A DNA stretch of 64,000 bases from Leucothrix pacifica (GTDB lineage: Bacteria > Pseudomonadota > Gammaproteobacteria > Thiotrichales > Thiotrichaceae), in contig NZ_QGKM01000056.1 of assembly GCF_003172875.1 (NCBI RefSeq), positions 1 through 64,000 of the forward strand, given 5' to 3'. Numbering within the stretch: the first letter of the stretch is position 1; each line of letters begins with the position of its first letter. This document shows positions 39,412 through 58,983 of the stretch, piece after piece. The notes under the pieces were generated by a model. The model saw only the letters and a list, made by a program, of their open reading frames with translations, ran no database searches and was not told the DNA's origin. The position numbers and the translations under genes are program-made.

Positions 39412-41355
39412 TTAGCTGTTTTCGCGATGCTCGATCAGGTCATCAACTACTGAAGGATCAGCAAGTGTTGAAGTATCGCCCAAGCTATCGATCTCGTTAG
39501 TTGCGATCTTGCGAAGGATACGACGCATGATCTTACCAGAACGAGTTTTTGGCAGGCCAGGAGACCACTGAATCAGATTAATCTTAGCGATTGGGCCGAT
39601 TTCAGCACGTACCAGTTTAACCAGTTCAGTCTTCAGCTCATCAGTACCCACTTCGCCGTCCATTAGTGTGACGTATGCATAAATACCCTGACCAGTCAGG
39701 TCATGTGGATAACCGACAACCGCCGCTTCTGCTACCTTCTCATGAAGACCAAGAGCCGCTTCGATTTCAGCAGTACCTAGACGGTGACCAGAGACGTTTA
39801 ATACGTCATCAACACGACCCGTGATCCAGTAGTGACCATCTTCGTCACGACGTGCGCCGTCACCCGTGAAGTAGTAACCCTTAAACATTGAGAAATACGT
39901 CTCATAGAAACGCTTGTGGTCGCCAAATACGGTGCGAATCATTGCAGGCCAAGGACGATCAATCGCTAAGTTACCCGCAGCAGGGCTACCTTCGATCTCG
40001 TTACCTTCATCATCAAGCAGTACAGGGTTCACACCGAAGAATGGCTGCATAGCAGAACCTGGCTTCAGGTCATTAACACCCGGAAGAGGCGTCATCATGT
40101 GACCACCAGTCTCAGTCTGCCACCATGTATCAACGATTGGGCACTTACCATTACCGACGATGTTGTAATACCACTCCCATGCTTCAGGATTGATTGGCTC
40201 ACCAACCGTACCCAATACACGTAAGCTCTTACGTGAAGTCTTTTCAACAGGCTCGTTACCCGCACCCATTAAAGAGCGGATTGCCGTAGGTGCTGTGTAG
40301 AAAATGCTGACGTTGTGTTTATCAACCACTTCCCAGAAACGTGAAATGTCAGGGTAAGTCGGAATACCTTCAAACATGACTGTAGTTGCACCGTTAGCCA
40401 GCGGGCCATACACGATGTAAGTGTGACCTGTAACCCAGCCGACGTCCGCTGTACACCAGTAAACATCACCTTCTTTGTAGTCAAACACTGCTTCGTGAGT
40501 CATTGCAGCCTGAACTAAGTAACCACCCGTTGTGTGCTGAACACCCTTTGGCGTACCAGTAGAACCAGACGTGTAAAGGATGAATAACGGATCTTCAGAA
40601 TCCATTTGCTCAGGTTCACAGTCTGCACTCGCTGCATCAACTGCTTCGTGATACCAAACGTCACGGTCTTCAGTCCACTCGATTGGATCACCACCGCGCT
40701 TTACCACGATGCAAGAATGAACGTTAGGGCAGTGCTCCAGAGCGATATCAGCATTGCTCTTCAGAGGAACACGGCGGCCACCACGCATAGATTGGTCAGC
40801 CGTGATTACAACACGGCAGTCAGAGTCATTGATACGACTTGCTAGTGCTTCAGGTGAGAAGCCACCGAATACGATCGAGTGGATCGCACCGATACGGGTA
40901 CAAGCCAGCATCGCGATAGCAGCTTCAGGAATCATTGGCAGGTACAAAGAAACGCGATCGCCTTTCTCAACGCCACGTGCTTTTAATACGTTAGCGAACT
41001 TAGATACTTCCTCGTGTAGTTCACGGTAAGTGATCTTACGTGTATCTTCAGGACTGTCGCCTTCCCAGATAATCGCAACCTGATCCGCACGCTTTTCAAG
41101 GTGACGGTCAATACAGTTATAAGATACGTTTAGTTTTGCTTCTGTGAACCAGTTGATGTGCAGATCTTCCTGATCAAAGCTCCAGTCCATCGTTTTCTTC
41201 CATGGCTTAAACCAGCTGACATACTTGTTAGCTTGCTCATCCCAGAAACCTTCAGGGTCGTCGATTGAACGTGCATACATTTCTTCAAACTGGGCTTTAT
41301 TGATGTTTGCCTGTGCAGCAAATTCAGCCGAAACCGGGAACGTTTTTTCAGACAT
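39412..41355 (-). CDS. acs: Acetyl-CoA synthetase
   Basis: Acs activates acetate to acetyl-CoA through acetyl-AMP. The 647-residue length and motifs match: the P-loop-like [20 protein letters not shown] near residue 264, the [12 protein letters not shown] core near 413, [14 protein letters not shown] near 493, and the C-terminal [12 protein letters not shown] near 603 whose Lys is the residue inactivated by acetylation in other bacteria. The window also carries a PatZ-like acetyltransferase and a deacetylase-fold protein that could act on that Lys, and an acetate-type symporter. It is divergent from phaC. Confidence 0.97.
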
Positions 41356-41473
41356 AAGTACATTTCTCCATGGGTAATCACTCTTCTCAAACTAAGGCCA
41401 CTAGTGGACTCGTCGCTCAACTAAGGCGTACATAATAACATTTTGCATGAGTCACTCTAAGTGGCTGGCCTAA

Positions 41474-41502
41474 TTCTCTATATTAGACTTAAATATAGTG
41501 AA
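41474..41502. promoter_or_regulatory. Inverted repeat upstream of acs
   Basis: TTCTCTATATT (41474-41484) and AATATAGTGAA (41492-41502) are 11-base arms with one mismatch and a 7-base spacer. The arrangement is operator-like and lies about 120 bases before the acs start. Confidence 0.35.
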
Positions 41503-41609
41503 CGACTTTTAGGCTTTACTATTGATAATCACAATAGTAAAAAATTTTATAGTGACGCACAATCATACGCCTAAGGTATATCATAGTGGTTTTACTGCAA
41601 AATCTTATA

Positions 41610-41630
41610 TTATTGTGCGGTGCACAATAA
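41610..41630. promoter_or_regulatory. Perfect inverted repeat upstream of phaC, candidate PhaR site
   Basis: TTATTGTGC (41610-41618) and GCACAATAA (41622-41630) form a perfect 9-base inverted repeat with a 3-base spacer. Inside it TGCGGTGCACAA (41616-41627) shares the pattern TGC-RR-TGCACAA with a site upstream of phaB. Confidence 0.5.
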
Positions 41631-41754
41631 GCTGCTATATTAGCCTGAGCACTGCAGATAGTTTGGGCCACTCTGATAACGATGTTATGATGTAGGTCAA
41701 ATTTACTGCTCTTAATAATGAGTAACATACGAGTCAATTGGTAAGGGATACAAT

Positions 41755-43881
41755 ATGTCTGAGCATGACAAACTAGACGAAGCTGCAAATCATCTGGAAG
41801 CAGCAACAGAGGCAATGAAACAGAATTTTCAGCACATTCAATCGATGATGGATGAATTTGCAAAGTCACACGAAAACCTCAATATGGATCCGTTTAATCT
41901 GTCTGCAGCTTATTCAGAGTGGTTAAAAGCTGCAACTAGTGATCCTAAGAAGTTAGTGGACGCTAATATGCGTTTTTTCCAAAACTCGATGGCTCTTTCA
42001 CAGCAAATGTTTAACGCCATGTTAGGGCAGTCATCTAAGCCAGTGATCACTGAAGAAGCGGGTGATCGTCGTTTCAAACATGAGGATTGGTCAAACAACC
42101 CGGTCTTCGGCACCATCAAACAGTCGTACCTTCTGACCTCTAAATGGATGCGTGATGTAGTGCAGGATGTTGAGGGCTTGGATGAGAAGACAGCTGAAAA
42201 AGTTGAATTCTTCACCGAGCGCTATTTAGATGCGTTGTCACCAACGAACTTTGCGGCAACCAATCCTGCGGTGATTGAGAAAGTACTCGAAACCAAAGGT
42301 GAAAACCTGATTAGCGGCCTGAAGAATATGATGGCTGATATGGACAACGGTAGTGGTCAGCTCAATATTCGTATGACGGATACTGAAGCATTTACTTTGG
42401 GTGAGAACGTTGCAGCGACGCCGGGTAAAGTGGTTTTCCAAAACCGCATGTTCCAGCTCATTCAGTACACACCAACCACTGAAAAAGTACTCAAGCGTCC
42501 TTTGATGATCGTCCCACCATGGATTAATAAATTCTACATCCTTGATTTACAGCCTAAAAACTCAATGTTGAAGTGGCTAACGGATCAGGGTCACACTGTC
42601 TTCGTCGTGTCATGGGTTAACCCTGATGAAACCTACCGAGATGTTGGTTTCGAGACTTATATGAAAGAGGGTGTTCTGACTGCAGTAGATGCAGTAGAGG
42701 CAGCAACGGGCGAAAGCGATATCAATGCCATTGGTTATTGTATCGGTGGAACACTGCTGAGCCTGACGTTGTCGTATATGAAGCAAATAGGGGATGAGCG
42801 CATTAAGAGTGCGACGTTCTTCACCACGATGATCGACTTCTCCGAGCCGGGTGAGTTGGGAGTATTCATTGATGAAGAGCAAATCCAGAATATTGAAGAG
42901 CGAATGGATACACAGGGTTACCTCGATGGTGCCGGTATGTCAGGTGCGTTTAATTTGATGCGTGCTAATGATTTGATTTGGTCTTTCTACATCAATAATT
43001 ACTTGCTCGGCAACGACGCCCGCCCGTTTGACTTGTTGTTCTGGAATTCAGATTCAACGCGTATGCCGGCTAAGATGCACTCTTGGTATCTACGCAATAT
43101 GTATCTGGAAAACCAATTATGTAAGCCTCAGGCGGTGACAGTTGAGGGTGTTGATATTGACTTATCAAAGATTGATATTCCGAGCTGCTTTATTTCTGCC
43201 GTTGATGATCACATCGCTCCGTGGCTTTCTACCTATAAGGGTGCGAAATTACTGGGTGGCAAAACTCGCTTTATCTTGGGTGGTTCTGGTCATATTGCCG
43301 GAATCGTTAACCCTCCTACACAAGTGAAATATGGTTACCGCTTTACTGATGACTTACCAGACGATCCACAAACATGGGCAGATAGCGCTGAACAGTTTGA
43401 AGGTTCGTGGTGGCCTGAGTGGGATAAGTGGGTACGTGCATTAGACAACAAGCAAGTAGCTGCCCGTAAGCCGGGAAGCGGCGCTCTGAAAGTCATTGAG
43501 GACGCACCAGGTACGTATGTGAAGTGTCGTTTAGGTGAGCCGGTACCAAAGCTCGAAACAACTGTCATTAAGCCTGTTGCAAAAAAAACAGCGACTAAAG
43601 CAAAAGCAAGTGCTACCAAAAAGCCAGCGGCTAAAAAAGCGACTGCAAAGAAGCCAGCGAGTAAAAAAGCTGAGACAAAGCCAGTTGCCAAAGCGAAACC
43701 AGCGACAAAAAAGTCAACGGACACAGCGGGTGCTAAGCAATCTGCTACTGTGAAGAAGACTGAAGCAGCAAAATCGCCCGCAAAAGCTAAGTCAGCTGCT
43801 AAAAAGCCAGTTGCTAAAGCTGAAGAGCCAGCTAAACAGCAAACAGAGGCTGACGCAAAAAAAGATTCTGATCAGAAGTAA
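41755..43881 (+). CDS. phaC: Class I polyhydroxyalkanoate synthase with histone-like tail
   Basis: This enzyme polymerises 3-hydroxyacyl-CoA into polyester at the granule surface. It is a class I type: a long N-terminal domain, then the lipase-like box IGYCIGGTLL with catalytic Cys329, ISAVDDHIAPW with the catalytic Asp near residue 483, and GGSGHIAGIVNPP with the His near 510. A class I enzyme normally ends near EDAPGTYVKCRLG (about residue 590). Here some 105 extra residues follow (about 603-708), almost all Lys, Ala, Pro and Thr in KKPAAKK-like repeats, resembling histone H1, AlgP and the tail of PhaM. The ribosome site AAGGGA precedes the ATG. It is divergent from acs and is not linked to phaAB directly. 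Confidence 0.94.
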   Translation: MSEHDKLDEAANHLEAATEAMKQNFQHIQSMMDEFAKSHENLNMDPFNLSAAYSEWLKAATSDPKKLVDANMRFFQNSMALSQQMFNAMLGQSSKPVITEEAGDRRFKHEDWSNNPVFGTIKQSYLLTSKWMRDVVQDVEGLDEKTAEKVEFFTERYLDALSPTNFAATNPAVIEKVLETKGENLISGLKNMMADMDNGSGQLNIRMTDTEAFTLGENVAATPGKVVFQNRMFQLIQYTPTTEKVLKRPLMIVPPWINKFYILDLQPKNSMLKWLTDQGHTVFVVSWVNPDETYRDVGFETYMKEGVLTAVDAVEAATGESDINAIGYCIGGTLLSLTLSYMKQIGDERIKSATFFTTMIDFSEPGELGVFIDEEQIQNIEERMDTQGYLDGAGMSGAFNLMRANDLIWSFYINNYLLGNDARPFDLLFWNSDSTRMPAKMHSWYLRNMYLENQLCKPQAVTVEGVDIDLSKIDIPSCFISAVDDHIAPWLSTYKGAKLLGGKTRFILGGSGHIAGIVNPPTQVKYGYRFTDDLPDDPQTWADSAEQFEGSWWPEWDKWVRALDNKQVAARKPGSGALKVIEDAPGTYVKCRLGEPVPKLETTVIKPVAKKTATKAKASATKKPAAKKATAKKPASKKAETKPVAKAKPATKKSTDTAGAKQSATVKKTEAAKSPAKAKSAAKKPVAKAEEPAKQQTEADAKKDSDQK
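43546..43880 (+). repeat. Lys/Ala/Pro-rich repeat tail of PhaC
   Basis: The final stretch of phaC is a degenerate coding repeat of AAG/AAA, GCN and CCA codons giving KPAAKK-, KKPASKK- and KSAAKKP-like units. It is strongly basic and ends with a mixed acidic run (EADAKKDSDQK). Confidence 0.85.
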
Positions 43882-43894
43882 TTGATTAGTTTCA

Positions 43895-43932
43895 GGCAAT
43901 AAAAAAGCTCCTGTGGGAGCTTTTTTATTGCC
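43895..43932. terminator. Bidirectional terminator between phaC and the response regulator gene
   Basis: GGCAATAAAAAAGCTCC (43895-43911) and GGAGCTTTTTTATTGCC (43916-43932) are perfect 17-base arms with a TGTG loop. T-runs occur on both strands, so it can end transcripts of both convergent genes. Confidence 0.95.
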
Positions 43933-43946
43933 ATCAATTTGTGTCG

Positions 43947-44816
43947 TTAACTGTTTTTTCCAAACTCATTCAGCCAGCGGGTAATTCGCTCGGTAACTTC
44001 CTGAAAATGCTGATGCTTAACAGGTTTGGTTAAATAGGTTGATGCGCCAGCTAAGACCCCTTTTACTTCATCAAGTGGTGAAGTTTTTCCACTAAGCATA
44101 ATGACCGGCGTTTTTTTGTAGCGAGGGTCTTTACGTATCTGCCCACAAGTCTCATAACCATCGATCCCCGGCATCATAATGTCCAGAAATATCAGGTCGT
44201 ATTCTTTATCGGCTATTTTCTCTAAGGCTTCTTCACCGGATTCTGCAAAATCGCTTTGCATACCTGACGTTCGTAATTCGATTTCTAATTGTTTGCGAAT
44301 CGCGGCACTGTCATCGATAACTAATGCCAAATAAGACTTTTGAACATTCGCTGAAGATTCAGGTGTAACGGTCGCAGTAGAAGGGGCAGGTTTCGTTTCT
44401 GTTGCGGGCGCAACGGTTGTTGGTGTTGGTTTAGTACTTATGGTTGATTTCTTTTTTGAGCCAATGCGTTTGGACAGCGTTTCCATCGTACGCATTACAC
44501 GCGTTACAAGCAGGGGGCGTTGAAGTTGTATATCTCCAGCTTCACAGTTCTGATCATTCGACACGACCAGCAGCATATTGCCATCTTGTTGTGCAATAGC
44601 CGATTCAATACTCGCTGTCTCGTCATTCGTAATCAGCACATCAGCATCAACTGAATCACTTATCTCAAAGTGCTGACCACGTGCTGCACAAAAGGTGATG
44701 ACTCGCTCAAACGTCGCCTTGTCAGCCGTTGGTAAATCAATAAAGCAAATGCTGATAGCACTGGGTGTGTCAGCCTGTGTCGTGGTGTCGGATTGCGATT
44801 CTTTCAAAGTATCCAT
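43947..44816 (-). CDS. Response regulator with N-terminal extension
   Basis: This is the last gene of the chemosensory operon, 289 residues. Residues 1-115 are an unassigned alpha/beta region (SICFIDLPTADKATFERVIT), possibly a degenerate receiver. A Thr/Pro/Ala-rich linker (about 120-155) leads to a C-terminal receiver domain: LVIDDSAAIRKQL with the acidic pair near 168, LIFLDIMMPGIDGYETCG with the phosphorylatable Asp near 213, MLSGKTSP and YLTKPVKHQHF with the conserved Lys. It has no DNA-binding or output domain. It starts four bases after the CheA-like gene and would receive phosphate from it. Confidence 0.86.
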   Translation of the reverse strand: MDTLKESQSDTTTQADTPSAISICFIDLPTADKATFERVITFCAARGQHFEISDSVDADVLITNDETASIESAIAQQDGNMLLVVSNDQNCEAGDIQLQRPLLVTRVMRTMETLSKRIGSKKKSTISTKPTPTTVAPATETKPAPSTATVTPESSANVQKSYLALVIDDSAAIRKQLEIELRTSGMQSDFAESGEEALEKIADKEYDLIFLDIMMPGIDGYETCGQIRKDPRYKKTPVIMLSGKTSPLDEVKGVLAGASTYLTKPVKHQHFQEVTERITRWLNEFGKNS

Positions 44817-51028: not shown

Positions 51029-52210
51029 TTAGGCGCGTTCTACTGTCATAGCAATACCCATACCACCACCGATACACAGAGTAGCCAGTCCTTTTTTGGC
51101 GTCACTTCGTTGCATTTCATGTAATAAGCTGACCAAAATTCTTGCACCTGAAGCACCAATCGGGTGACCGATAGCAATCGCACCACCGTTTACATTCACC
51201 TTCTCAGCATCCCAGCCCATATCCATATTTACAGATAGCGCCTGTGCTGCGAATGCTTCATTCGCCTCAACCAAGTCAAGATCAGATACTTCCCAGCCTG
51301 CTTTAGCCAGGCACTTTTGGCTGGCAGAAATGGGTCCGGTTCCCATAATCTTTGGGTCAACACCCGTAGAGGCATAAGAAACAATCTTTGCAAGTGGTGT
51401 CAGGCCAAGCTCTTCAGCTTTGCTGGCACTCATTACCATCACCGCTGCTGCACCATCATTGATGCCAGATGCATTACCAGCAGTTACTGTACCATCACGT
51501 GAGAACGCAGCACGTAGCTTGCCCAGACTTTCTGCAGTGGTACCGTGACGCGGAAATTCATCCTGAGCGAAAACAACCGGATCACCACGTCGCTGAGGGA
51601 TCTCGACCGGAACAATCTCGTCTTCAAATTTGCCTGCTTTTTGAGCCGCTTCGGCTTTTTGCTGAGAGGCTGCAGCGAATGCATCCTGAGTCTCACGGCT
51701 GATTTCATACTTATCAGCAATATTCTCAGCAGTCGTCCCCATGTGGTAGTCATTGAAAGCATCCCATAATCCATCCTGAATCATAGTGTCCTTCATTTTC
51801 CAGTCCATCATCTTCTGGCCATTTCGTGAGTTAGGCAGAACGTGAGGGGAGGCACTCATATTTTCCTGACCACCAGCGATCACGATATCCGCGTCACCAC
51901 ATTTGATGGCTTGAAAGGCAAGTTGAACAGACTTGAGTCCACTACCGCAGACTTTATTGATTGTCATAGCCGGAACAGACTCAGGCAAGCCTGCCGCGAT
52001 AACGCTTTGACGTGCCGGATTCTGACCAGAACCCGCTGTCAGTACCTGGCCCAAAATAACTTCATCGACTGATTCACCAGACACGCCCGTCTTTTCCAGT
52101 AAGTCAGCTAATACTTTTGCGCCTAATTGCTGCGCAGGCACACTCGCAAGTGAACCACCGAAGTTACCTACGGCGGTCCGGCTTGCTGCCACAATTACTA
52201 CATCACTCAT
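51029..52210 (-). CDS. phaA: Acetyl-CoA C-acetyltransferase (beta-ketothiolase)
   Basis: This thiolase condenses two acetyl-CoA to acetoacetyl-CoA, the entry step of PHB synthesis. It is 393 residues long, with nucleophile Cys88 in [22 protein letters not shown] near 317, [18 protein letters not shown] near 343 with the active-site His, and the second Cys in TLCIGGGMG near 378. The set is that of biosynthetic thiolases. It follows phaB by 34 bases on the same strand, so the two form a phaB-phaA unit that ends at the hairpin downstream. Confidence 0.95.
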
Positions 52211-52244: not shown

Positions 52245-52994
52245 TTAGAAACTCATGAATAATCCACCATTTACAGGAATGTTAGCACCTGTAACATAAG
52301 CGGAATTATCATCCGTTAACCAGGCAACAGCTTGTGCAATTTCTGCTGGCTTAGCCATACGACCCATTGGTACTTCGCCAATGATAGCTTCCAACACTTT
52401 CTCAGGCATTGCTTCTGTCATGGCAGTCGCAACGTACCCGGGTGACACGGTATTTACTGTAACACCTTTGCGGGCACCTTCGCGAGCCGTAGCCATGGTA
52501 AAACCGTGTAATCCTGCTTTTGCTGCAGAATAATTAGGTTGACCGAACTGTCCACGCTGTCCATTGACTGAGGAAATGTTCACGACACGACCAAATCCGC
52601 GCTCCATCATACCAATCATGACTGGTTTTGTAACGTTGAAGGCACTGGTTAGGTTGGTATCAATCACAGCTTCCCAAGCTGAGTATTCCATTTTCTTAAG
52701 GCTGGCGTCACGTGTAATACCGGCACAGTTGACAAGAATATCGATTGGACCAACAGACTCTTCGACATTAGCAACCATCTGTTGAGTTTGCTCAAAATCA
52801 GCAACGTCAGCCGCAGCCAGAATAATCTCGTATCCGTCGCGTTTCATTTCAGCTTGCCATTTTTCAGCATTCTCTTTATCAGCCGGATAATAGCCAGCGA
52901 TAACCGTACAGCCTTTGTTTACTAGCGCCATACAGATTGACTCACCGATACCGCCGTTGCCACCGGTTACCAGTGCAATTCTTTTTTCGTTCAT
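52245..52994 (-). CDS. phaB: Acetoacetyl-CoA reductase
   Basis: PhaB reduces acetoacetyl-CoA to (R)-3-hydroxybutyryl-CoA with NADPH. It is a 249-residue short-chain dehydrogenase with the nucleotide motif [12 protein letters not shown] at residue 9, [14 protein letters not shown] near 90, and the Ser-Tyr-Lys catalytic set in [20 protein letters not shown] (Lys just after). The stretch [13 protein letters not shown] is typical of PhaB and separates it from FabG. It is the first gene of the phaBA unit; a TGC-rich motif lies 69-80 bases upstream of its start. Confidence 0.95.
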
Positions 52995-53200: not shown

Positions 53201-55879
53201 ATGCGATCGCATTACCTAAGTTCTCTGTTTCTACCGAAGTCCATTGCTATGTTTGGTGCAAGTGACCGAGCTAACTCCGTTGGACAGGCTGTTTTCGAAA
53301 ATTTGATGAATGGAGGATTTAAGGGTGAAATTTATCCGATAAATCCTAAGCATAAGAAAATCAACGATATTAAGTGTTATGCCGACCTTGCAGCACTAGA
53401 CAAACCGGTTGAAATGGCCGTAGTCACAACGCCTGCAAAAACAGTATTGCCAATTATGCGGCAGTGTGGAGAGCATGGCGTTAAGCATGTTGTGTTATTT
53501 GCGTCTGGCTTTCGCGAGGCCGGGGATGCGGGGATTGCCCTTGAGCAAAAGGTGATGGAGGTAGCGCAGTCCTACGGTATTCGTATTTTAGGGCCTAATT
53601 CGAGTGGTTTTATACGTCCTAAGGTTGGTTTGAACATTAGTTGTGGCTTTAGCCTGAGTAAACCGGGAAATGTGGCCATAGTGTCTCAGTCCGGTGCCAT
53701 TTGTAGTGCCATGTTGGACTGGGCAGATTCTAATGACATTGGTTTCTCAACAGTTGTATCGACGGGTGCCTCCGCTGATCTTGATTTCGGTGAAGTGCTT
53801 GACTATCTGGTTAGCGATCCCGATACACGCAGTATCTTGCTGTACATAGAGGGTTTACATAACTCACGTCGTTTTATGAGTGGTTTGAGAGCTGCGGCAC
53901 GTATTAAGCCGGTGATTGCGATAAAAGTAGGGCGTTTTTACGGAGAAGTCGAAACGCCCATGTCACACACCGGTGCGATGGTTGGTAGCGATGAGGTGTT
54001 TGATGAGGCGCTATCTCGCTCAGGTGTGGTTCGTATTAGTCAGTTTACTCAGTTATTTGCTGCTGCCCGGATTCTATCGTCACGCTACCGCAGTGCGGGC
54101 AAGAATCTGATGATTATTTCAAATGGTGCCGGTCCCGGTGTATTGGCGGCTGACTATGCAGTGGATAAAGGACTTAAGCTGGTTGAACCTTCAGAGGAAA
54201 CGATAAAGAAATTAGCAAAGTTTCTTGGACCACATCAAGGGCGGCGAAACCCCCTGGACCTGAAATTTGGCGCTGATCCAAACAGTTATCCTAAAGCCAT
54301 TGAGCTGTGCCTGCAGGATGAGAATATAGATGGTGTTGTCGCCTTTTTTACGCCGATAGCGACTCAAAACTCAGAAGAAATCGCTAAGTCCGTGATTGCT
54401 TTAGCGGATAAGTATAAGAAACCAATCCTGACATCGTGGATGGGCGGGACTCAGGTACAGTCTTCCAGAGAGTTGTTTGCTAAAGCAAAAATTCCAAGTT
54501 ATCAAACCCCTGAATCCACAATCGATGCTTATTCGTTTTTAGCAGCCTATCAGCTAAGCCAAAAGTTGTTGTTACAGTCGCCTAGTAAATACAGTACCGG
54601 GCACGAACGGGCGGATGTGGAAGCGCCACACCTGATTATCGAGTCGGCGCTGTCAGAAAAGCGTAAATCGCTAACAGCTCAAGAGTCTATGGCGATATTA
54701 CAGGCGTTCTCAATCAACACGGTGCGTAATGCCGTTGCCTATTCGCCTGAGCAGGCCTTAGTGATTGCGACGTCGATTGGTTTTCCCGTCGCGATGAAGG
54801 TACTGTCACCGGACATTGCACACAAGTCTGATGTGATGGGTGTCGTACTTAACATACGTGGTGCGCAAAAAGTGCGTAATGTATACCGCGAAATCATGGA
54901 CAACGTCAAAATTAAGCGCCCGGAAGCTCGCATTGACGGTGTTCTTATCGAAAAAATGCATATCGCGCCTAATGGCCGTGAGCTGATGATTGGTCTAAAA
55001 AATGATTCAATATTTGGTCCCGTCATTAGCTTTGGAAGTGGTGGCACGCAGGTTGAAGTACTGCGGGATCATGCGGTGGCATTGCCCCCACTCAATCGCT
55101 TACTTGCCGAAAAGCTAATTAACCGAACCAAAGTAAAGCGCCTGCTTGAAGAGTTTGGCCACATGCCTGCAGCGAATAAAGAAGCAGTGATTAATATTTT
55201 GCTACGGGTTTCGGCGATGGCTTGTGAATTGCCATGGATACAGGAGATGGACATCAATCCATTGATCGTCGATGAGCATGGTATCGTGGCGGTAGATGCC
55301 CATATTCGTGTTGCTTATCCTAAGTCCAGTAATCGTCAATATGCGCATATGGCGATTCATCCGTATCCGGCACGCGTTGTGGAAAATCAGCAGTTGGCCG
55401 ATGGCACGGATATCGTTCTTAGACCGATTCGTCCGGATGATACAGGTTTGTTGACGACATTTATGGATAGTTTATCGTCGGAAGCTAAGTATTTCCGGTT
55501 TATGCATGCACTGCATCACTTGTCACCTGAGATGCTGGTTCGCTTTACTCAGATCGACTACGACCTCGAGATGGCGGTCGTTGCAGTTGAGCAAGAAGAA
55601 GGGCGCGTATTAGGTGTAGCTCGCTTCTTGTCGAACCCGGATAATATTAGCTGTGAGTTTGCACTGGTGGTTTCTGATGCTCGTCAGAATCAGGGCTTAG
55701 GTCACCGATTGATGAGTAAATTAATTGAAGTGGCTTATGATAAAGGTTTATCAGTGATTGAAGGTGAGGTACTGGCGAATAATCACAAGATGTTGGGGCT
55801 GATGAAGTCAATGGAATTTACCATTGTTAATGACCCTGAAGATATGAATGTGAAGATCGTCAGCAAGCGTATTGCTTAA
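53201..55879 (+). CDS. Acyl-CoA ligase (ADP-forming)-like protein with GNAT domain, PatZ-like
   Basis: This 892-residue protein has the layout of lysine acetyltransferases PatZ/YfiQ/Pat. The N-terminal CoA-binding domain (about 8-130) starts FLPKSIAMFGASDRANSVGQ; a succinyl-CoA-ligase-like region (about 150-460) includes IVSQSGAICSAMLDWA and VKVGRFYGE-like IKVGRFYGEV; an ATP-grasp part (about 490-715) includes GFPVAMKVLSPDIAHKSDVM and the late MDINPLIV; and a GNAT domain (about 730-892) includes VVSDARQNQGLGHRLMSKLI, the acetyl-CoA loop. In enteric bacteria such proteins acetylate and inactivate Acs. The final codons form one arm of a terminator. It is convergent with the deacetylase-fold gene. 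Confidence 0.9.
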   Translation: MRSHYLSSLFLPKSIAMFGASDRANSVGQAVFENLMNGGFKGEIYPINPKHKKINDIKCYADLAALDKPVEMAVVTTPAKTVLPIMRQCGEHGVKHVVLFASGFREAGDAGIALEQKVMEVAQSYGIRILGPNSSGFIRPKVGLNISCGFSLSKPGNVAIVSQSGAICSAMLDWADSNDIGFSTVVSTGASADLDFGEVLDYLVSDPDTRSILLYIEGLHNSRRFMSGLRAAARIKPVIAIKVGRFYGEVETPMSHTGAMVGSDEVFDEALSRSGVVRISQFTQLFAAARILSSRYRSAGKNLMIISNGAGPGVLAADYAVDKGLKLVEPSEETIKKLAKFLGPHQGRRNPLDLKFGADPNSYPKAIELCLQDENIDGVVAFFTPIATQNSEEIAKSVIALADKYKKPILTSWMGGTQVQSSRELFAKAKIPSYQTPESTIDAYSFLAAYQLSQKLLLQSPSKYSTGHERADVEAPHLIIESALSEKRKSLTAQESMAILQAFSINTVRNAVAYSPEQALVIATSIGFPVAMKVLSPDIAHKSDVMGVVLNIRGAQKVRNVYREIMDNVKIKRPEARIDGVLIEKMHIAPNGRELMIGLKNDSIFGPVISFGSGGTQVEVLRDHAVALPPLNRLLAEKLINRTKVKRLLEEFGHMPAANKEAVINILLRVSAMACELPWIQEMDINPLIVDEHGIVAVDAHIRVAYPKSSNRQYAHMAIHPYPARVVENQQLADGTDIVLRPIRPDDTGLLTTFMDSLSSEAKYFRFMHALHHLSPEMLVRFTQIDYDLEMAVVAVEQEEGRVLGVARFLSNPDNISCEFALVVSDARQNQGLGHRLMSKLIEVAYDKGLSVIEGEVLANNHKMLGLMKSMEFTIVNDPEDMNVKIVSKRIA

Positions 55880-55900
55880 TACTAATACGCTTGCTGTTTG
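55861..55900 (+). terminator. Terminator overlapping the end of the PatZ-like gene
   Basis: CAGCAAGCGTATT (55861-55873) and AATACGCTTGCTG (55884-55896) are perfect 13-base arms with a ten-base loop, followed by TTTGTTTT. The left arm is coding sequence for the last residues, and the stop codon lies in the loop. Confidence 0.88.
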
Positions 55901-55902
55901 TT

Positions 55903-56835
55903 TTAGAGCTTCATGAGTACCTTGAGATGAGCAACCACACTTCTGGCTAGCGCGGAAGTGTCATAACCGCCTTCCAGCATTGAGACAATGCGTCCATTGG
56001 CGTACTTGTCCGCTATCTCACACAGTTGCTCGGTGACCCACTTATAATCGCTTTCGACCAGGCGCAAGCCAGCCATTTCATCTTCTAAATGCGCATCAAA
56101 GCCTGCTGAGATAAAAATCATCTGTGGTTTGAAGTCGTGCAGAGCTGGTAACCAGTAGCCTTCGACAGCTTCTCTGAATTCAGCAGCGCCAGCACCTTGT
56201 GCTAAAGGAGCGTTAATCAGGTAGCCTTTTTTGCTTGGCTTAGCGCGCTCTGGGTACAGCGGGTGTTGATAGGTTGAGCAGAATAATATCTGCGGATCGT
56301 CCGCGACAATGTCTTCTGTACCATTGCCGTGGTGCACGTCAAAATCAACTATCGCAACCCGTTCCAAGCCGTGCTTTTTAATCGCATGACGTGCCGCAAT
56401 CGCGATATTGTTAAAAAAGCAGAATCCCATGGCCTCGTCACGCTCAGCATGATGCCCCGGTGGTCTGACGCTGCAAAATACACGTTGCTCTGTGTCATCA
56501 CTGAGTACTTTGTCTGTCGCTGCTATCGCTGCACCCGCAGAGCGAAGGGCTGCCTGCAAGGTGAACTCATTCATATACGTATCAGGATCAATATGAGCCA
56601 TCTTGCTGTCATCAGCCGGGGATTGTTCAAAGATATAGTCGATGTGCTTTTGACTGTGGGCCAATGCCAGTTGTTCTGCAGTGGCTAGTGGTGCATCGTA
56701 GTAACGAATAAAATCACCGATTCCTGAAGTGATTAGTTGGTCATCGATCGCACGCAGGCGTTGAGGGCGTTCAGGATGCCCATGACCCATGTCATGCTTC
56801 AGGCAATCTGCATGGGTGTAAATGGCAATGCTCAT
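55903..56835 (-). CDS. Histone deacetylase family protein
   Basis: This is a zinc amidohydrolase of the arginase/deacetylase fold, 310 residues. The active-site signatures are all present: RPPGHHAERDEAMGFCFFNN near residue 127, IVDFDVHHGNGTEDI near 167 with Asp and His zinc ligands, and ISAGFDAHLEDEMAG near 247. The C-terminal MLEGGYD holds the catalytic Tyr region. Bacterial members include AcuC, which deacetylates acetyl-CoA synthetase, and polyamine or acetoin-related amidohydrolases. Placement next to a PatZ-like acetyltransferase favours protein deacetylation, as inference. Confidence 0.92.
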   Translation of the reverse strand: MSIAIYTHADCLKHDMGHGHPERPQRLRAIDDQLITSGIGDFIRYYDAPLATAEQLALAHSQKHIDYIFEQSPADDSKMAHIDPDTYMNEFTLQAALRSAGAAIAATDKVLSDDTEQRVFCSVRPPGHHAERDEAMGFCFFNNIAIAARHAIKKHGLERVAIVDFDVHHGNGTEDIVADDPQILFCSTYQHPLYPERAKPSKKGYLINAPLAQGAGAAEFREAVEGYWLPALHDFKPQMIFISAGFDAHLEDEMAGLRLVESDYKWVTEQLCEIADKYANGRIVSMLEGGYDTSALARSVVAHLKVLMKL

Positions 56836-56844
56836 GGCTTAACC

Positions 56845-57303
56845 TTATTTGTCGTCGCTTTTATTGGACTTGAAAAAGCTATCCTGAACTTGTTTCCACA
56901 TCGCTAGATTTTTGGCCGTTGATTGCTTCCAGAAATCCATAGGGTTGCTGGTCATCATTTCTTTCATCTGCTGTTGCATGGTTTGCTGTTGCTGATGGAA
57001 AAATTGCAGGCTTTTTTGCATATAATCATTGAAGCCTTCACGGGAATTTTCACCGTAATACCGGATGAAGTTTTCCAGGCTGTCAGTGGTAAACAGGGGT
57101 TCGTTATTGGACTCTTGTTCAAGGATGATCTGTAATAAAATGCTGCGTGTGATGTCTTGCTCAGACTGGCTATCAATCACTCTGATTTCTAGTCCGTCTT
57201 CGATCATTGTTTTAATGTCGACCAATTTAATATAACGGCTACCCTCAGTGTCGTATAGTCGTCTGTTTGGGTACTTTTTAATTAGGCGTGTTTTCTGATC
57301 CAT
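56845..57303 (-). CDS. phaR: Polyhydroxyalkanoate synthesis repressor
   Basis: PhaR represses phasin and pha genes and is released by binding to PHA granules. I chose the ATG at 57303, preceded by AGAAGAG, giving MDQKTRLIKKYPNRRLYDTE, which fits the family start; the frame extends to an ATG at 57345 that has no ribosome site. The N-terminal DNA-binding domain (about 5-60) carries IKKYPNRRLYDTEGSRYIKL and the following PHB-accumulation domain has RSILLQIILEQES. The C-terminus is Gln/Met-rich (QQQQTMQQQMKEMM). It is divergent from the phaE-like gene. Confidence 0.94.
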   Translation of the reverse strand: MDQKTRLIKKYPNRRLYDTEGSRYIKLVDIKTMIEDGLEIRVIDSQSEQDITRSILLQIILEQESNNEPLFTTDSLENFIRYYGENSREGFNDYMQKSLQFFHQQQQTMQQQMKEMMTSNPMDFWKQSTAKNLAMWKQVQDSFFKSNKSDDK

Positions 57304-57375
57304 AGAACTCTTCTGTTTATTCCCTATGAAACCAAATAGGTTCATGAGTTGTTGTCTTGTATACTACTACAAAAT

Positions 57376-57440: not shown

Positions 57441-57899
57441 TTGGCGTCGACGATACAGGATAAAATGCGATATGTGGGCGTTGCATATCAGCAGTTTCTG
57501 ATCGCAATCAATACGGATCAGGATTGCCTGAATCAGGCTCGCTCTGTATTTGAGCAACATTTTTATATTTTGGTATCACAACATAGAAAAATACTGGATT
57601 CACTGTCTATTCCGAATCCTGAATTTCTGGAAGATAGCGTATTACTTCAAACCAAAATAGTGAATTTCACGAAGCAGTTTGAATGCTTTTATGTTGACGT
57701 CTTTGAACAGTTTAAAGCGCAACATTCAGGGCTAATTGATAAGGATTCTAAGATGGCTTTCAAATGTTGGCTCCAAATGTTTGATACTGAGTATTTAGCC
57801 TATATAAGACAGGACAGTGTCTGTCGCGAATATGCAGACATATTGTTAGCGACAACACAACTCGCCCAACAATTACAGTCCTCTGATAAGGCTGGCTGA
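57441..57899 (+). CDS. Short PhaE-like subunit
   Basis: This small helical protein of 152 residues lies one base before a class III-type PHA synthase gene. The TTG start at 57441 has GGAG eight bases upstream; an ATG at 57465 (144 residues, AGGA nearby) is the alternative. No enzyme motif is visible. The C-terminal half (KCWLQMFDTEYLAYIRQDSV, then YADILLATTQLAQQL) resembles the C-terminal helical part of PhaE, the non-catalytic partner of class III PhaC. Typical PhaE is about 350 residues, so this is a very short version and closer in size to class IV PhaR subunits. The role is inferred from position and pattern. Confidence 0.6.
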   Translation: MASTIQDKMRYVGVAYQQFLIAINTDQDCLNQARSVFEQHFYILVSQHRKILDSLSIPNPEFLEDSVLLQTKIVNFTKQFECFYVDVFEQFKAQHSGLIDKDSKMAFKCWLQMFDTEYLAYIRQDSVCREYADILLATTQLAQQLQSSDKAG

Positions 57900-57900
57900 C

Positions 57901-58983
57901 GTGAGCACTGTTAGTCTCGAAGCGCCAGTCTCGACTCCGGTCTGTCTTTTTGAACGAGGTGCTGCCTGTTTGACGTCTGCTACGCAAAAATGGACTCCTG
58001 TGACGCAGCGCGAACAAGTGGCTGCTTCCACGCTTTATCAGTTGTACCGCTATCCGCTGTCTGAGCATCAGGCTGAGTCGGGAGCTCGCAGCGTTGAGAC
58101 TGACGAAGTCGTGCTAATCGTCTATGCCATGGTCAATACAGCGTCAGTGCTGGATCTGGATCGTGATATGTCGATGATACAAGCCCTGAAAGCGCAGGGG
58201 CTGACCGTTTACCTCATGGAGTGGGAAGAGCCTCAGGTTCAGCAGAGTTCCATTGGTATGAGTGAGTACCTGCAGCGTTCTTTACACCATTGTGTTATGC
58301 AAATAAGACAGGACTGCAAGCTTGATAAAATCAATCTGATGGGGGTCTGTCAGGGGGGGGTATTTGCACTGTGTTATGCCAAGCTATACCCCGAATATAT
58401 CCGGTCGGTCATTCCATTGGTCACTCCGATTAATTGTCATACCCAATACGACACACTCAGCACTTTAGCCCGGCATATGGATTTTGAGTCCTTATTGATG
58501 CCGGGTATTAATATTCCGGGTCAGTTGCTGGCGCAGGTGTTCTTGTCATTAAAGCCGATGACGCTCAGTATCATGAAATATATAGAGATATCTGAACGCT
58601 TAAATGCTGCGAAGGATAATACTGAGCTCAGTAGAAAGTTTATGGCAATGGAACAATGGATAGAGGAAACGCCAGATCAGCCCGCTCTGTTTTTTAAAGA
58701 GTTCGTAGAGAGTGTCTATCAACAAAATGCACTTTATAAGGGTGAATTGTTGATCCTTGGCGAAAAGATAGATTTGAGACAGATGGAAATCCCGGTACTC
58801 AATATTTATGCTTCTAATGATCACTTAGTACCGCCGGATTCTTCAAAAGCATTGGCCGAGTTGGTTCCTGAAGCGTATTACCAGTCGCTTGAAGTGAGGA
58901 CGGGTCACATTGGGATGTTTGTCAGTCGTAAATCACTGAAGCAAGTCCCCCAAGCAATAGCTGACTTTATTCGTCAGCCTTGA
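57901..58983 (+). CDS. phaC: Class III polyhydroxyalkanoate synthase subunit
   Basis: This is the second PHA synthase of the window, 360 residues, the size of class III PhaC. It begins with GTG one base after the phaE-like stop. The lipase box is LMGVCQGGVFALC with Cys150; YASNDHLVPPDSS near 300 holds the Asp and EVRTGHIGMFVSRKS near 335 the His. Class III enzymes need PhaE, here a very short candidate. A run of eight G residues (58353-58360) lies just after the catalytic Cys codon. The 3' end overlaps the convergent carbonic anhydrase-like gene by ten bases. Confidence 0.92.
   Translation: MSTVSLEAPVSTPVCLFERGAACLTSATQKWTPVTQREQVAASTLYQLYRYPLSEHQAESGARSVETDEVVLIVYAMVNTASVLDLDRDMSMIQALKAQGLTVYLMEWEEPQVQQSSIGMSEYLQRSLHHCVMQIRQDCKLDKINLMGVCQGGVFALCYAKLYPEYIRSVIPLVTPINCHTQYDTLSTLARHMDFESLLMPGINIPGQLLAQVFLSLKPMTLSIMKYIEISERLNAAKDNTELSRKFMAMEQWIEETPDQPALFFKEFVESVYQQNALYKGELLILGEKIDLRQMEIPVLNIYASNDHLVPPDSSKALAELVPEAYYQSLEVRTGHIGMFVSRKSLKQVPQAIADFIRQP

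Follow-up and report, generated by a model that had tools for sequence, protein, structure and literature searches.

A class I polyhydroxyalkanoate synthase of Leucothrix pacifica carries a basic C-terminal tail, a possible tether to the nucleoid

The phaC gene and its product

This study concerns phaC, the gene for a class I polyhydroxyalkanoate (PHA) synthase, in Leucothrix pacifica (Gammaproteobacteria; Thiotrichales; Thiotrichaceae). The DNA analyzed, called the window throughout, is 64,000 nucleotides long and comprises positions 1 to 64,000 of the forward strand of contig NZ_QGKM01000056.1 (NCBI RefSeq assembly GCF_003172875.1); loci and genomes used for comparison carry L and G numbers. 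In the encoded synthase, PhaC, a class I core continues into a long basic C-terminal tail, and this sequence observation is right and solid. The gene, its parts and its 3' end are laid out as follows:

41755..43881, + strand: phaC, class I PHA synthase with C-terminal basic tail (ATG open reading frame (ORF) of 708 aa, stop codon included)
41935..43524, + strand: class I synthase region, residues 61-590 (TIGR01838, 780.1 bits; alignment with 9knj_A)
43543..43878, + strand: Lys/Ala/Thr/Pro-rich tail, residues 597-708 (composition, net charge +22, isoelectric point (pI) 10.3)
43617..43680, + strand: imperfect 16/30-bp tandem repeats inside the tail
43895..43932, + strand: terminator-like hairpin directly 3' of the phaC stop codon, between the convergent phaC and response-regulator genes (fold of 43880-43940)

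A preliminary description of this DNA had identified the product as a class I PHA synthase, and the NCBIfam model TIGR01838 bore this out with 780.1 bits over residues 61-590 (cut-off 622.65; profile positions 2-531 of 532). The protein also matched Pfam PhaC_N (259.4 bits), and its best solved relative by sequence was 9knj_A, aligned over residues 56-594 (E = 2.3e-163). C329, D485 and H513, which we take to be the catalytic triad, were invariant in a 17-row alignment; the PhaC box is GYCIG. The core is acidic, with a net charge of -27 and a pI of 4.8. By sequence, the protein is an active-looking class I polyhydroxybutyrate (PHB) synthase.

The hairpin that follows the stop codon is flanked by runs of A and T and has a folding energy of -28.2 kcal/mol (z -7.1). 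It was spotted in the sequence by eye, and the terminator consensus scan did not pick it up. Promoter and terminator consensus scans of 41300-44000 returned 3 and 1 sites vs 4.2 and 2.2 in shuffled sequences; since sites were no more numerous than in shuffles, these scans were uninformative.

The C-terminal tail

According to the same description, the catalytic part ends near residue 590 and is followed by a Lys/Ala/Pro-rich tail of about 105 residues. The boundary and the composition stand, while the length is in fact 112 residues after residue 596, among them 32 K (29% Lys), 28 A, 13 T, 9 P and 10 D or E. With its net charge of +22 and pI of 10.3, the tail is indeed a direct, basic, histone H1-like extension of PhaC, although matches to Hc2/H1 models are weak and below cut-off. 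Its last 20 residues have a net charge of -2. The motifs AAKK and AKKP occur twice each and KPAxKK three times; PAKKA and PAKK do not occur in the tail. In the predicted structure the tail has a predicted local distance difference test score (pLDDT) of about 22-31 and is without secondary structure. Since the full-length model is low in confidence throughout (mean pLDDT 50.9; predicted template modeling score (pTM) 0.50), this is weak evidence, and the tail is best called apparently disordered.

The tail had further been interpreted as that of PhaM, fused to the synthase. This was not supported: NF043076 (PHA_gran_PhaM) had no match to the window protein at E <= 1 in an NCBIfam scan, and the tail is without PAKK. 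TIGR01837 (PHA_granule_1, the phasin domain of PhaF) likewise had no match to the protein at E <= 1, and a Pfam scan found no helix-hairpin-helix module in the protein or its tail. We also considered a copy of a resident H1-like protein as the source of the tail, and rejected it because no other match was found in the genome (best other E = 2.18; low-complexity filtering may hide some). A search for the tail on plasmids gave no match. The tandem repeats within the tail DNA are a possible route of tail growth.

At the start of the tail lies a run of eight A (43589-43597; A AAA AAA in frame), and a -1 slip there would lead to a stop codon; such a slip would presumably be comparable to that of dnaX. 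A tailless isoform produced at this slippery heptamer was considered and dropped, the heptamer being missing at that place in both congeners described below.

The tail is open and in frame at the same place in two congeners, namely the metagenome isolate DOLZORAL124_48_12 (locus L029; 102 aa, net +15) and genome G003 (locus L004; 125 aa, net +17). Amino-acid identity between the window protein and these two is 82-85% in the core and 45-49% in the tail; the nucleotide difference is 24% in the core and 44-45% in the tail (44-50% across the three genus members that have the gene). Since the reading frame of the tail is open in both, it is no frameshift artefact. Among 226 ORFs of at least 250 aa (window plus loci L029-L059), just two had basic, K/A/P/T-rich last 100 aa by a cut that we set ourselves: the window PhaC and the orthologous protein of L029. 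None of the remaining PhaCs among these 226 ORFs has a tail that passes. Class I phaC is present in three of the seven genomes of the window genus (G000, G002 and G003). G006, a 99% complete genome of the genus, had no class I phaC match at E <= 1e-50, and the other three in which the gene was not found are 56-69% complete.

Survey of PhaC tails

A survey of PhaC proteins for such a tail, as proposed in the preliminary description, found it in a minority confined almost to one clade. PhaC loci came from relatives (15 of 39 genomes), named genomes (31 loci), a sample of the class (55 of 274 genomes) and the family (28 of 63 genomes). Class-sample matches without a locus were fetched too; eight family matches without a locus were left out, namely a single fragment (68% identity) and seven second PhaCs (51-52%). 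Removal of identical sequences left 141 distinct frames, and six cut before the end of the core were dropped, giving 135; eight of these begin after query residue 100, and in a few cases one gene may be represented by pieces in two loci. Thirty of the 135 PhaCs reaching the core C-terminus have a tail of at least 20 aa after the core, and 105 have less. A maximum-likelihood tree of PhaC cores placed 45 of the 135; the 90 not included, all untailed, had a core identity below 55% (88) or a short core (two). On this tree, a single clade of 30 sequences (branch 98/96) holds 29 of the 30 tailed PhaCs; its members come from Thiothrix, Thiolinea, Thiofilum, Candidatus Thiodiazotropha and other gammaproteobacteria. 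The thirtieth tailed PhaC (L086), outside the clade, has 37 aa with a net charge of -2. Four family genomes with a tailed PhaC have a second class I PhaC (L018, L019, L020 and L021), which extends at most 2 residues past the core.

The linker pI exceeds 8 in 25 of the 29 clade tails. Of the remaining four, L037, L138 and L142 are basic over their final 20 aa (+6 to +8), and L033 combines an acidic linker with a helix-hairpin-helix module.

Basic tails also occur farther away. In a phylum sample of 67 PhaC frames from 68 loci among the matches listed, five frames had a tail of at least 20 aa; long open frames were one reason for choosing these loci, and the count should not be read as a frequency. 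Two class I-like PhaCs of a distant genus in the same phylum, outside the class of the window (L222 and L223; core 40% identical), have Lys/Ala/Pro tails of 80 and 79 aa with net charges of +19 and +18, and three others (L207, L209 and L211) have tails of 33-43 aa with net charges of +6 to +12. These belong to two genera outside the tailed clade and were not placed on the tree. The design of L222 and L223 probably had a separate origin, and basic tails thus appear to have evolved on PhaC on more than one occasion.

Helix-hairpin-helix modules in related synthases

At the end of the linker, 11 of the 29 tailed clade PhaCs carry a helix-hairpin-helix module (L005, L006, L007, L032, L033, L036, L038, L041, L054, L060 and L146); this count takes L146 as a carrier and treats L043, with a 35-aa tail near a contig end, as unknown. 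The module is about 65 aa long, starts with DDLT and contains GIGP or GVGP. Pfam HHH_5 matched the two modules scanned (28.6 and 27.1 bits; cut-off 27), and one of the two also matched Cdd1 (28.8 bits vs 25.5). The C-terminal part of NF045508 (phasin PhaH) matched three tested PhaC modules with E values of 5.7e-7, 1.6e-12 and 8.8e-13, without reaching the whole-protein cut-off of 250 bits. These sequences suggest that the tail is a K/A/P linker, which in 11 of 29 tailed relatives finishes in a PhaH-type helix-hairpin-helix module. The predicted structure of the module is fairly confident (mean pLDDT 84.3, pTM 0.65). VIA-align, applied to the best 162 chains by Foldseek, placed 80 at Z >= 5 and eight at Z >= 8 (best 9.8), including Pol theta, RadA, NusA and Pol iota; for helical folds, Z values of this level possibly reflect just a common arrangement.

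Parsimony on the PhaC tree requires three changes, either one gain and two losses (in the window genus and in the Thiothrix-Thiolinea group) or three gains. A single clade of module carriers on the PhaC tree was rejected (approximately unbiased (AU) test, p = 0.019), and a tree of the modules themselves, built on few columns, was compatible with one origin of the PhaC modules (AU p = 0.525). We prefer one gain and two losses, under which the window tail would be the linker of a lost module. We looked for a relic of the module downstream of phaC and recognized none in the window, L004 or L029: in the region of the stop and beyond it, none of the three frames of these loci contains a GIGP string, and the only GVGA, in L029, is off-frame and between stops.

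Similar ends were found on PhaE-type proteins, six of which in the same family match TIGR01834 (cut-off 154.95 bits). Two score above the cut-off (L172, 178.8 bits; L185, 208.7 bits) and four below (L164, 133.6; L165, 104.9; L166, 123.2; L167, 107.8). A basic linker plus module ends L164 and L166; L165, L167 and L172 have the module after a short or acidic linker, and the end of L185 is Lys/Ala/Pro only. The PhaE and PhaC modules lie on opposite sides of a 99/99 branch (few columns). As a side observation, the window genome also encodes a large Glu/Ala/Lys-rich protein with six PhaH-type helix-hairpin-helix repeats (L156; 1-2601, G000:C81).

Comparison with known granule proteins

In three model bacteria, separate tether proteins set the position of PHB granules along the nucleoid (PMC13052382). 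A 2025 review lists histone-like domains for PhaM and PhaF and a helix-hairpin-helix for PhaH as the means of DNA binding and granule placement (PMC13052382). PhaF of Pseudomonas putida and PhaM of Cupriavidus necator have a histone-like C-terminus with reported non-specific DNA binding (PMC9049629, PMC13052382), and a PAKKA motif is reported as needed for nucleoid attachment of PhaM (PMC9049629). Like them, the window PhaC is a PHA granule protein with a histone-like C-terminus; unlike it, they are separate and non-catalytic, and their sequence models do not match the window protein. PhaH of Caulobacter crescentus (Salinas 2023) has a C-terminal helix-hairpin-helix reported to bind DNA and order granules (PMC13052382, PMC12028471). 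It shares this end with the related PhaCs; however, PhaH is a phasin, not a synthase, and the window protein is without the module.

A close counterpart already described is PhaC2 of Cobetia, for which a 2021 report noted an extended basic C-terminus with Hc2-like matches and proposed a role in DNA binding, possibly in place of PhaM (PMC8686332). Like the window PhaC, it has a class I core and a long C-terminus, mostly unordered and high in pI (10.34 for strain MC34), with unspecific Hc2/H1-like matches; it was speculated to anchor to the nucleoid in place of the missing PhaM (PMC8686332). It differs in its 380-aa tail, in belonging to the Halomonadaceae and in its PhaC box (SYCIG vs GYCIG in the window) (PMC8686332). 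The window PhaC fits that description, with a class I core, a long basic tail and weak Hc2-like matches. Since the idea of an H1-like tail on the synthase replacing PhaM was put forward then (PMC8686332), it is not new; what is new here is the comparison across the tailed PhaC clade. The same report mentions, as data not shown, a COG3743 match (H3TH, helix-hairpin-helix type) in PhaC2 of Halomonas sp. O-1 and a histone H1-like NF038053 match in PhaC2 of H. bluephagenesis TD01, and both types of end are thus already noted on bacterial PhaC-like proteins (PMC8686332). A 2011 paper had already pointed out that TD01 PhaC2 has a longer C-terminus and linked this to salt (PMC3227634). These two proteins resemble the window PhaC in being PhaC-like with longer C-termini, but they have other PhaC boxes, TD01 PhaC2 is 19% identical to PhaC1, and O-1 PhaC2 gave no PHA in E. 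coli (PMC8686332, PMC3227634).

PhaC of Haloferax mediterranei has, in an AlphaFold model, a disordered C-terminal extension holding a helix-hairpin-helix, a domain that the 2025 report calls absent from bacterial PhaC (PMC12028471). In this it is like the tailed PhaCs, a catalytic subunit with a disordered extension and the module, although the enzyme is an archaeal PhaEC (PMC12028471). The 11 bacterial class I PhaC loci with a module and the Halomonas O-1 match count against this statement on bacterial PhaC. Among the matches listed for the open-access literature, we found no title or abstract on a tailed PhaC of Thiothrix-like bacteria, nor an account of the exchange of basic tail and helix-hairpin-helix across a clade in class I PhaC and PhaE.

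Genes around phaC

The window phaC is part of a PHA island, which also includes:

39412..41355, - strand: acs, acetyl-CoA synthetase, divergent neighbor of phaC (in the window and both congeners with phaC)
51029-52210, - strand: phaA-like thiolase
52245-52994, - strand: phaB-like acetoacetyl-CoA reductase
56845..57345, - strand: PhaR, PHA synthesis repressor (TIGR01848, 129.7 bits; cut-off 109.45)
57441-57899, + strand: conserved orphan ORF of 152 aa ahead of the class III PhaC-like gene (synteny)
57901..58983, + strand: class III PhaC-like second synthase, untailed (TIGR01836, 299.7 bits, below the cut-off of 365.3; synteny)

The acs assignment is presumptive and made from the sequence. The order is acs, phaC, genes that we take to be of chemotaxis type, phaA, phaB, an acetyltransferase, an HDAC-family deacetylase, PhaR, the orphan ORF and the class III PhaC-like gene. 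Both congeners (L262 and L263) preserve this order from phaC through the class III gene. Three other family genomes (L264-L266) likewise have phaC, phaA, phaB, PhaR and a class III PhaC-like gene (37-43% identical) inside a stretch of 20 kb. The orphan ORF had no Pfam or NCBIfam match at E <= 0.01; it is 41-43% identical in the two congeners, and PhaE stands at that position in the relative G015 (L172, L266). It may be a reduced or replaced PhaE.

At 53201-56835 of the window, an 892-aa protein with CoA-ligase and GNAT domains, presumably a Pat-like protein acetyltransferase, adjoins the HDAC-family deacetylase (Hist_deacetyl, 298.8 bits). This pair lies inside the PHA island in all three genus members with phaC and was not found in the examined stretches of three other family genomes. 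As a speculation, reversible acetylation of lysines in the PhaC tail could loosen it from DNA.

Discussion

The best explanation of these data, in our judgment favored only slightly, is that the PhaC tail would act as a non-specific nucleoid tether for the synthase and the nascent granule, and not as a fused PhaM. A polybasic, disordered tail would attach to DNA without sequence specificity, in the manner of the histone-like tails of PhaF and PhaM. The synthase, together with the granule growing from it, would thereby stay on the nucleoid, spread along the cell and be shared at division. The tail itself would descend from an ancestral linker that in related synthases ends in a PhaH-type helix-hairpin-helix; in the window genus the module is missing and the linker is strongly basic. 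The sequences themselves show the architecture, its open frame and occurrence in two congeners, the tails across the clade and the modules of relatives; disorder, DNA binding, tethering and the order of gains and losses are what we infer, and the chances that a built-in nucleoid tether is the function are about even. Tethering gains support since known nucleoid-tethering granule proteins use the same two devices, a histone-like domain and a helix-hairpin-helix (PMC13052382). It is further supported by the charge of the protein, by the tails of 29 of the 30 clade sequences and the modules of 11, by the similar ends of PhaE-type proteins and distant PhaCs, and by the lack of a PhaM match in the draft genome at E <= 1, in a search without a positive control.

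Several results weigh against tethering. The Hc2/H1 models PF07382, NF038052 and NF038053 score far below cut-off on the window tail (18.1 of 40, 17.7 of 135 and 17.1 of 80 bits). Charge is not conserved, since the net charge of clade tails without a module ranges from -3 to +22, and one member of the clade (L143) has only 12 aa after the core; under simulated neutral evolution, charges at the level of the relatives were nothing out of the ordinary (P 0.09 to 0.48, depending on divergence and threshold). The module is of a generic type that also stands on unrelated proteins, since ribosomal L21, S2 and NuoE models fit it about as well as PhaH. Its solved relatives by sequence are the ends of a photosynthetic reaction-centre protein (E 1.4e-6) and a complex I subunit (E 0.0049), and it therefore need not bind DNA in every protein. 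Foldseek gave no significant match for the module (best E 0.43), and parsimony does not separate its possible histories of gain and loss. The tail may also be redundant, since the window genome encodes two other proteins with suitable ends. One, L154 (G000, C56:41592-42503; locus positions 793-1704), is a PhaE-like protein of 304 aa (TIGR01834 only 18.2 bits) with a Lys/Pro-rich basic linker and a C-terminal helix-hairpin-helix, and is a second candidate nucleoid tether; a relative is present in G005 (L163), and none was matched at E <= 1e-6 in G002 or G003. The other, L153 (1402-1869, G000:C125), is a Phasin_2 protein whose C-terminus, AAKAAPAKKAPAKKAA, has two PAKKA motifs; L152, the other of the two phasins found in the genome, is without such an end. 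Finally, a basic low-complexity tail could instead bind RNA, polyphosphate or acidic proteins.

This last possibility can be broadened to a tail that serves polyanion binding or solubility, with RNA, polyphosphate, acidic phasins or the acidic core of a neighboring subunit as partners, and that tunes activity, oligomer state or the granule surface rather than attachment to DNA. We regard it as unlikely, though the strongest of the alternatives. Considering that the core carries -27 and the tail +22, contact within or between subunits is plausible, and the low charge of several relatives (L136 +4, L040 +3 and L037 -3) also speaks for it. A further precedent is AlgP, in which a PhaF-like domain goes together with the positioning of polyphosphate granules (PMC13052382). 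On the other hand, 11 of 29 relatives carry a PhaH-type helix-hairpin-helix at the end of the linker, and published granule proteins with such ends are said in the same source to bind DNA.

Less probable again, and in our view improbable, is a tail that is a little-constrained relic or slippage product, i.e., a linker left after loss of the module, drifting and kept as harmless. The lower identity of the tail to its congeners (45-49% vs 82-85% in the core), the tandem repeats in its DNA, clade tails as short as 34 aa and 12 aa, and a drift of charge not rejected by neutral simulation would all fit such a history. Yet the three genus members with the gene have open basic tails of 102-125 aa despite a nucleotide difference of 44-50% in the tail, and basic tails stand on PhaCs of two genera outside the clade too.

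A true PhaM or PhaF fused to PhaC is very improbable: the tail has a composition that we take to resemble that of the PhaM and PhaF tails, and no separate PhaM was matched in the draft genome at E <= 1, in a search without a positive control since 14 control genomes likewise had none over cut-off, but the protein itself has no PhaM or PHA_granule_1 match at that threshold, PAKK is absent and the terminal module of the relatives is a different one.

Returning to the tail as a nucleoid tether, a wider picture may be sketched tentatively, and we rate it somewhat below even. In the sulfur-bacteria lineage of Thiothrix, Thiolinea, Thiofilum, Thiodiazotropha and relatives, PHA synthases (class I PhaC and, separately, class III PhaE) may carry interchangeable nucleoid-binding ends, either a polybasic tail, a PhaH-type helix-hairpin-helix or both. 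The birth of the granule would thereby be tied to the chromosome at the polymerase itself, without PhaM, PhaF or PhaH, and the window genus would have traded the folded module for a purely histone-like tail. If this is true, these ends would offer bioplastic engineers ready-made parts for setting granule number and position. The lineage holds natural basic-tailed, module-bearing and nearly tailless versions on closely related cores, and the roles of the tail and of the helix-hairpin-helix are thus separable. If the synthase carries its own tether, the sites at which granules start and their sharing at division would follow from a single gene, open to truncation or swap.

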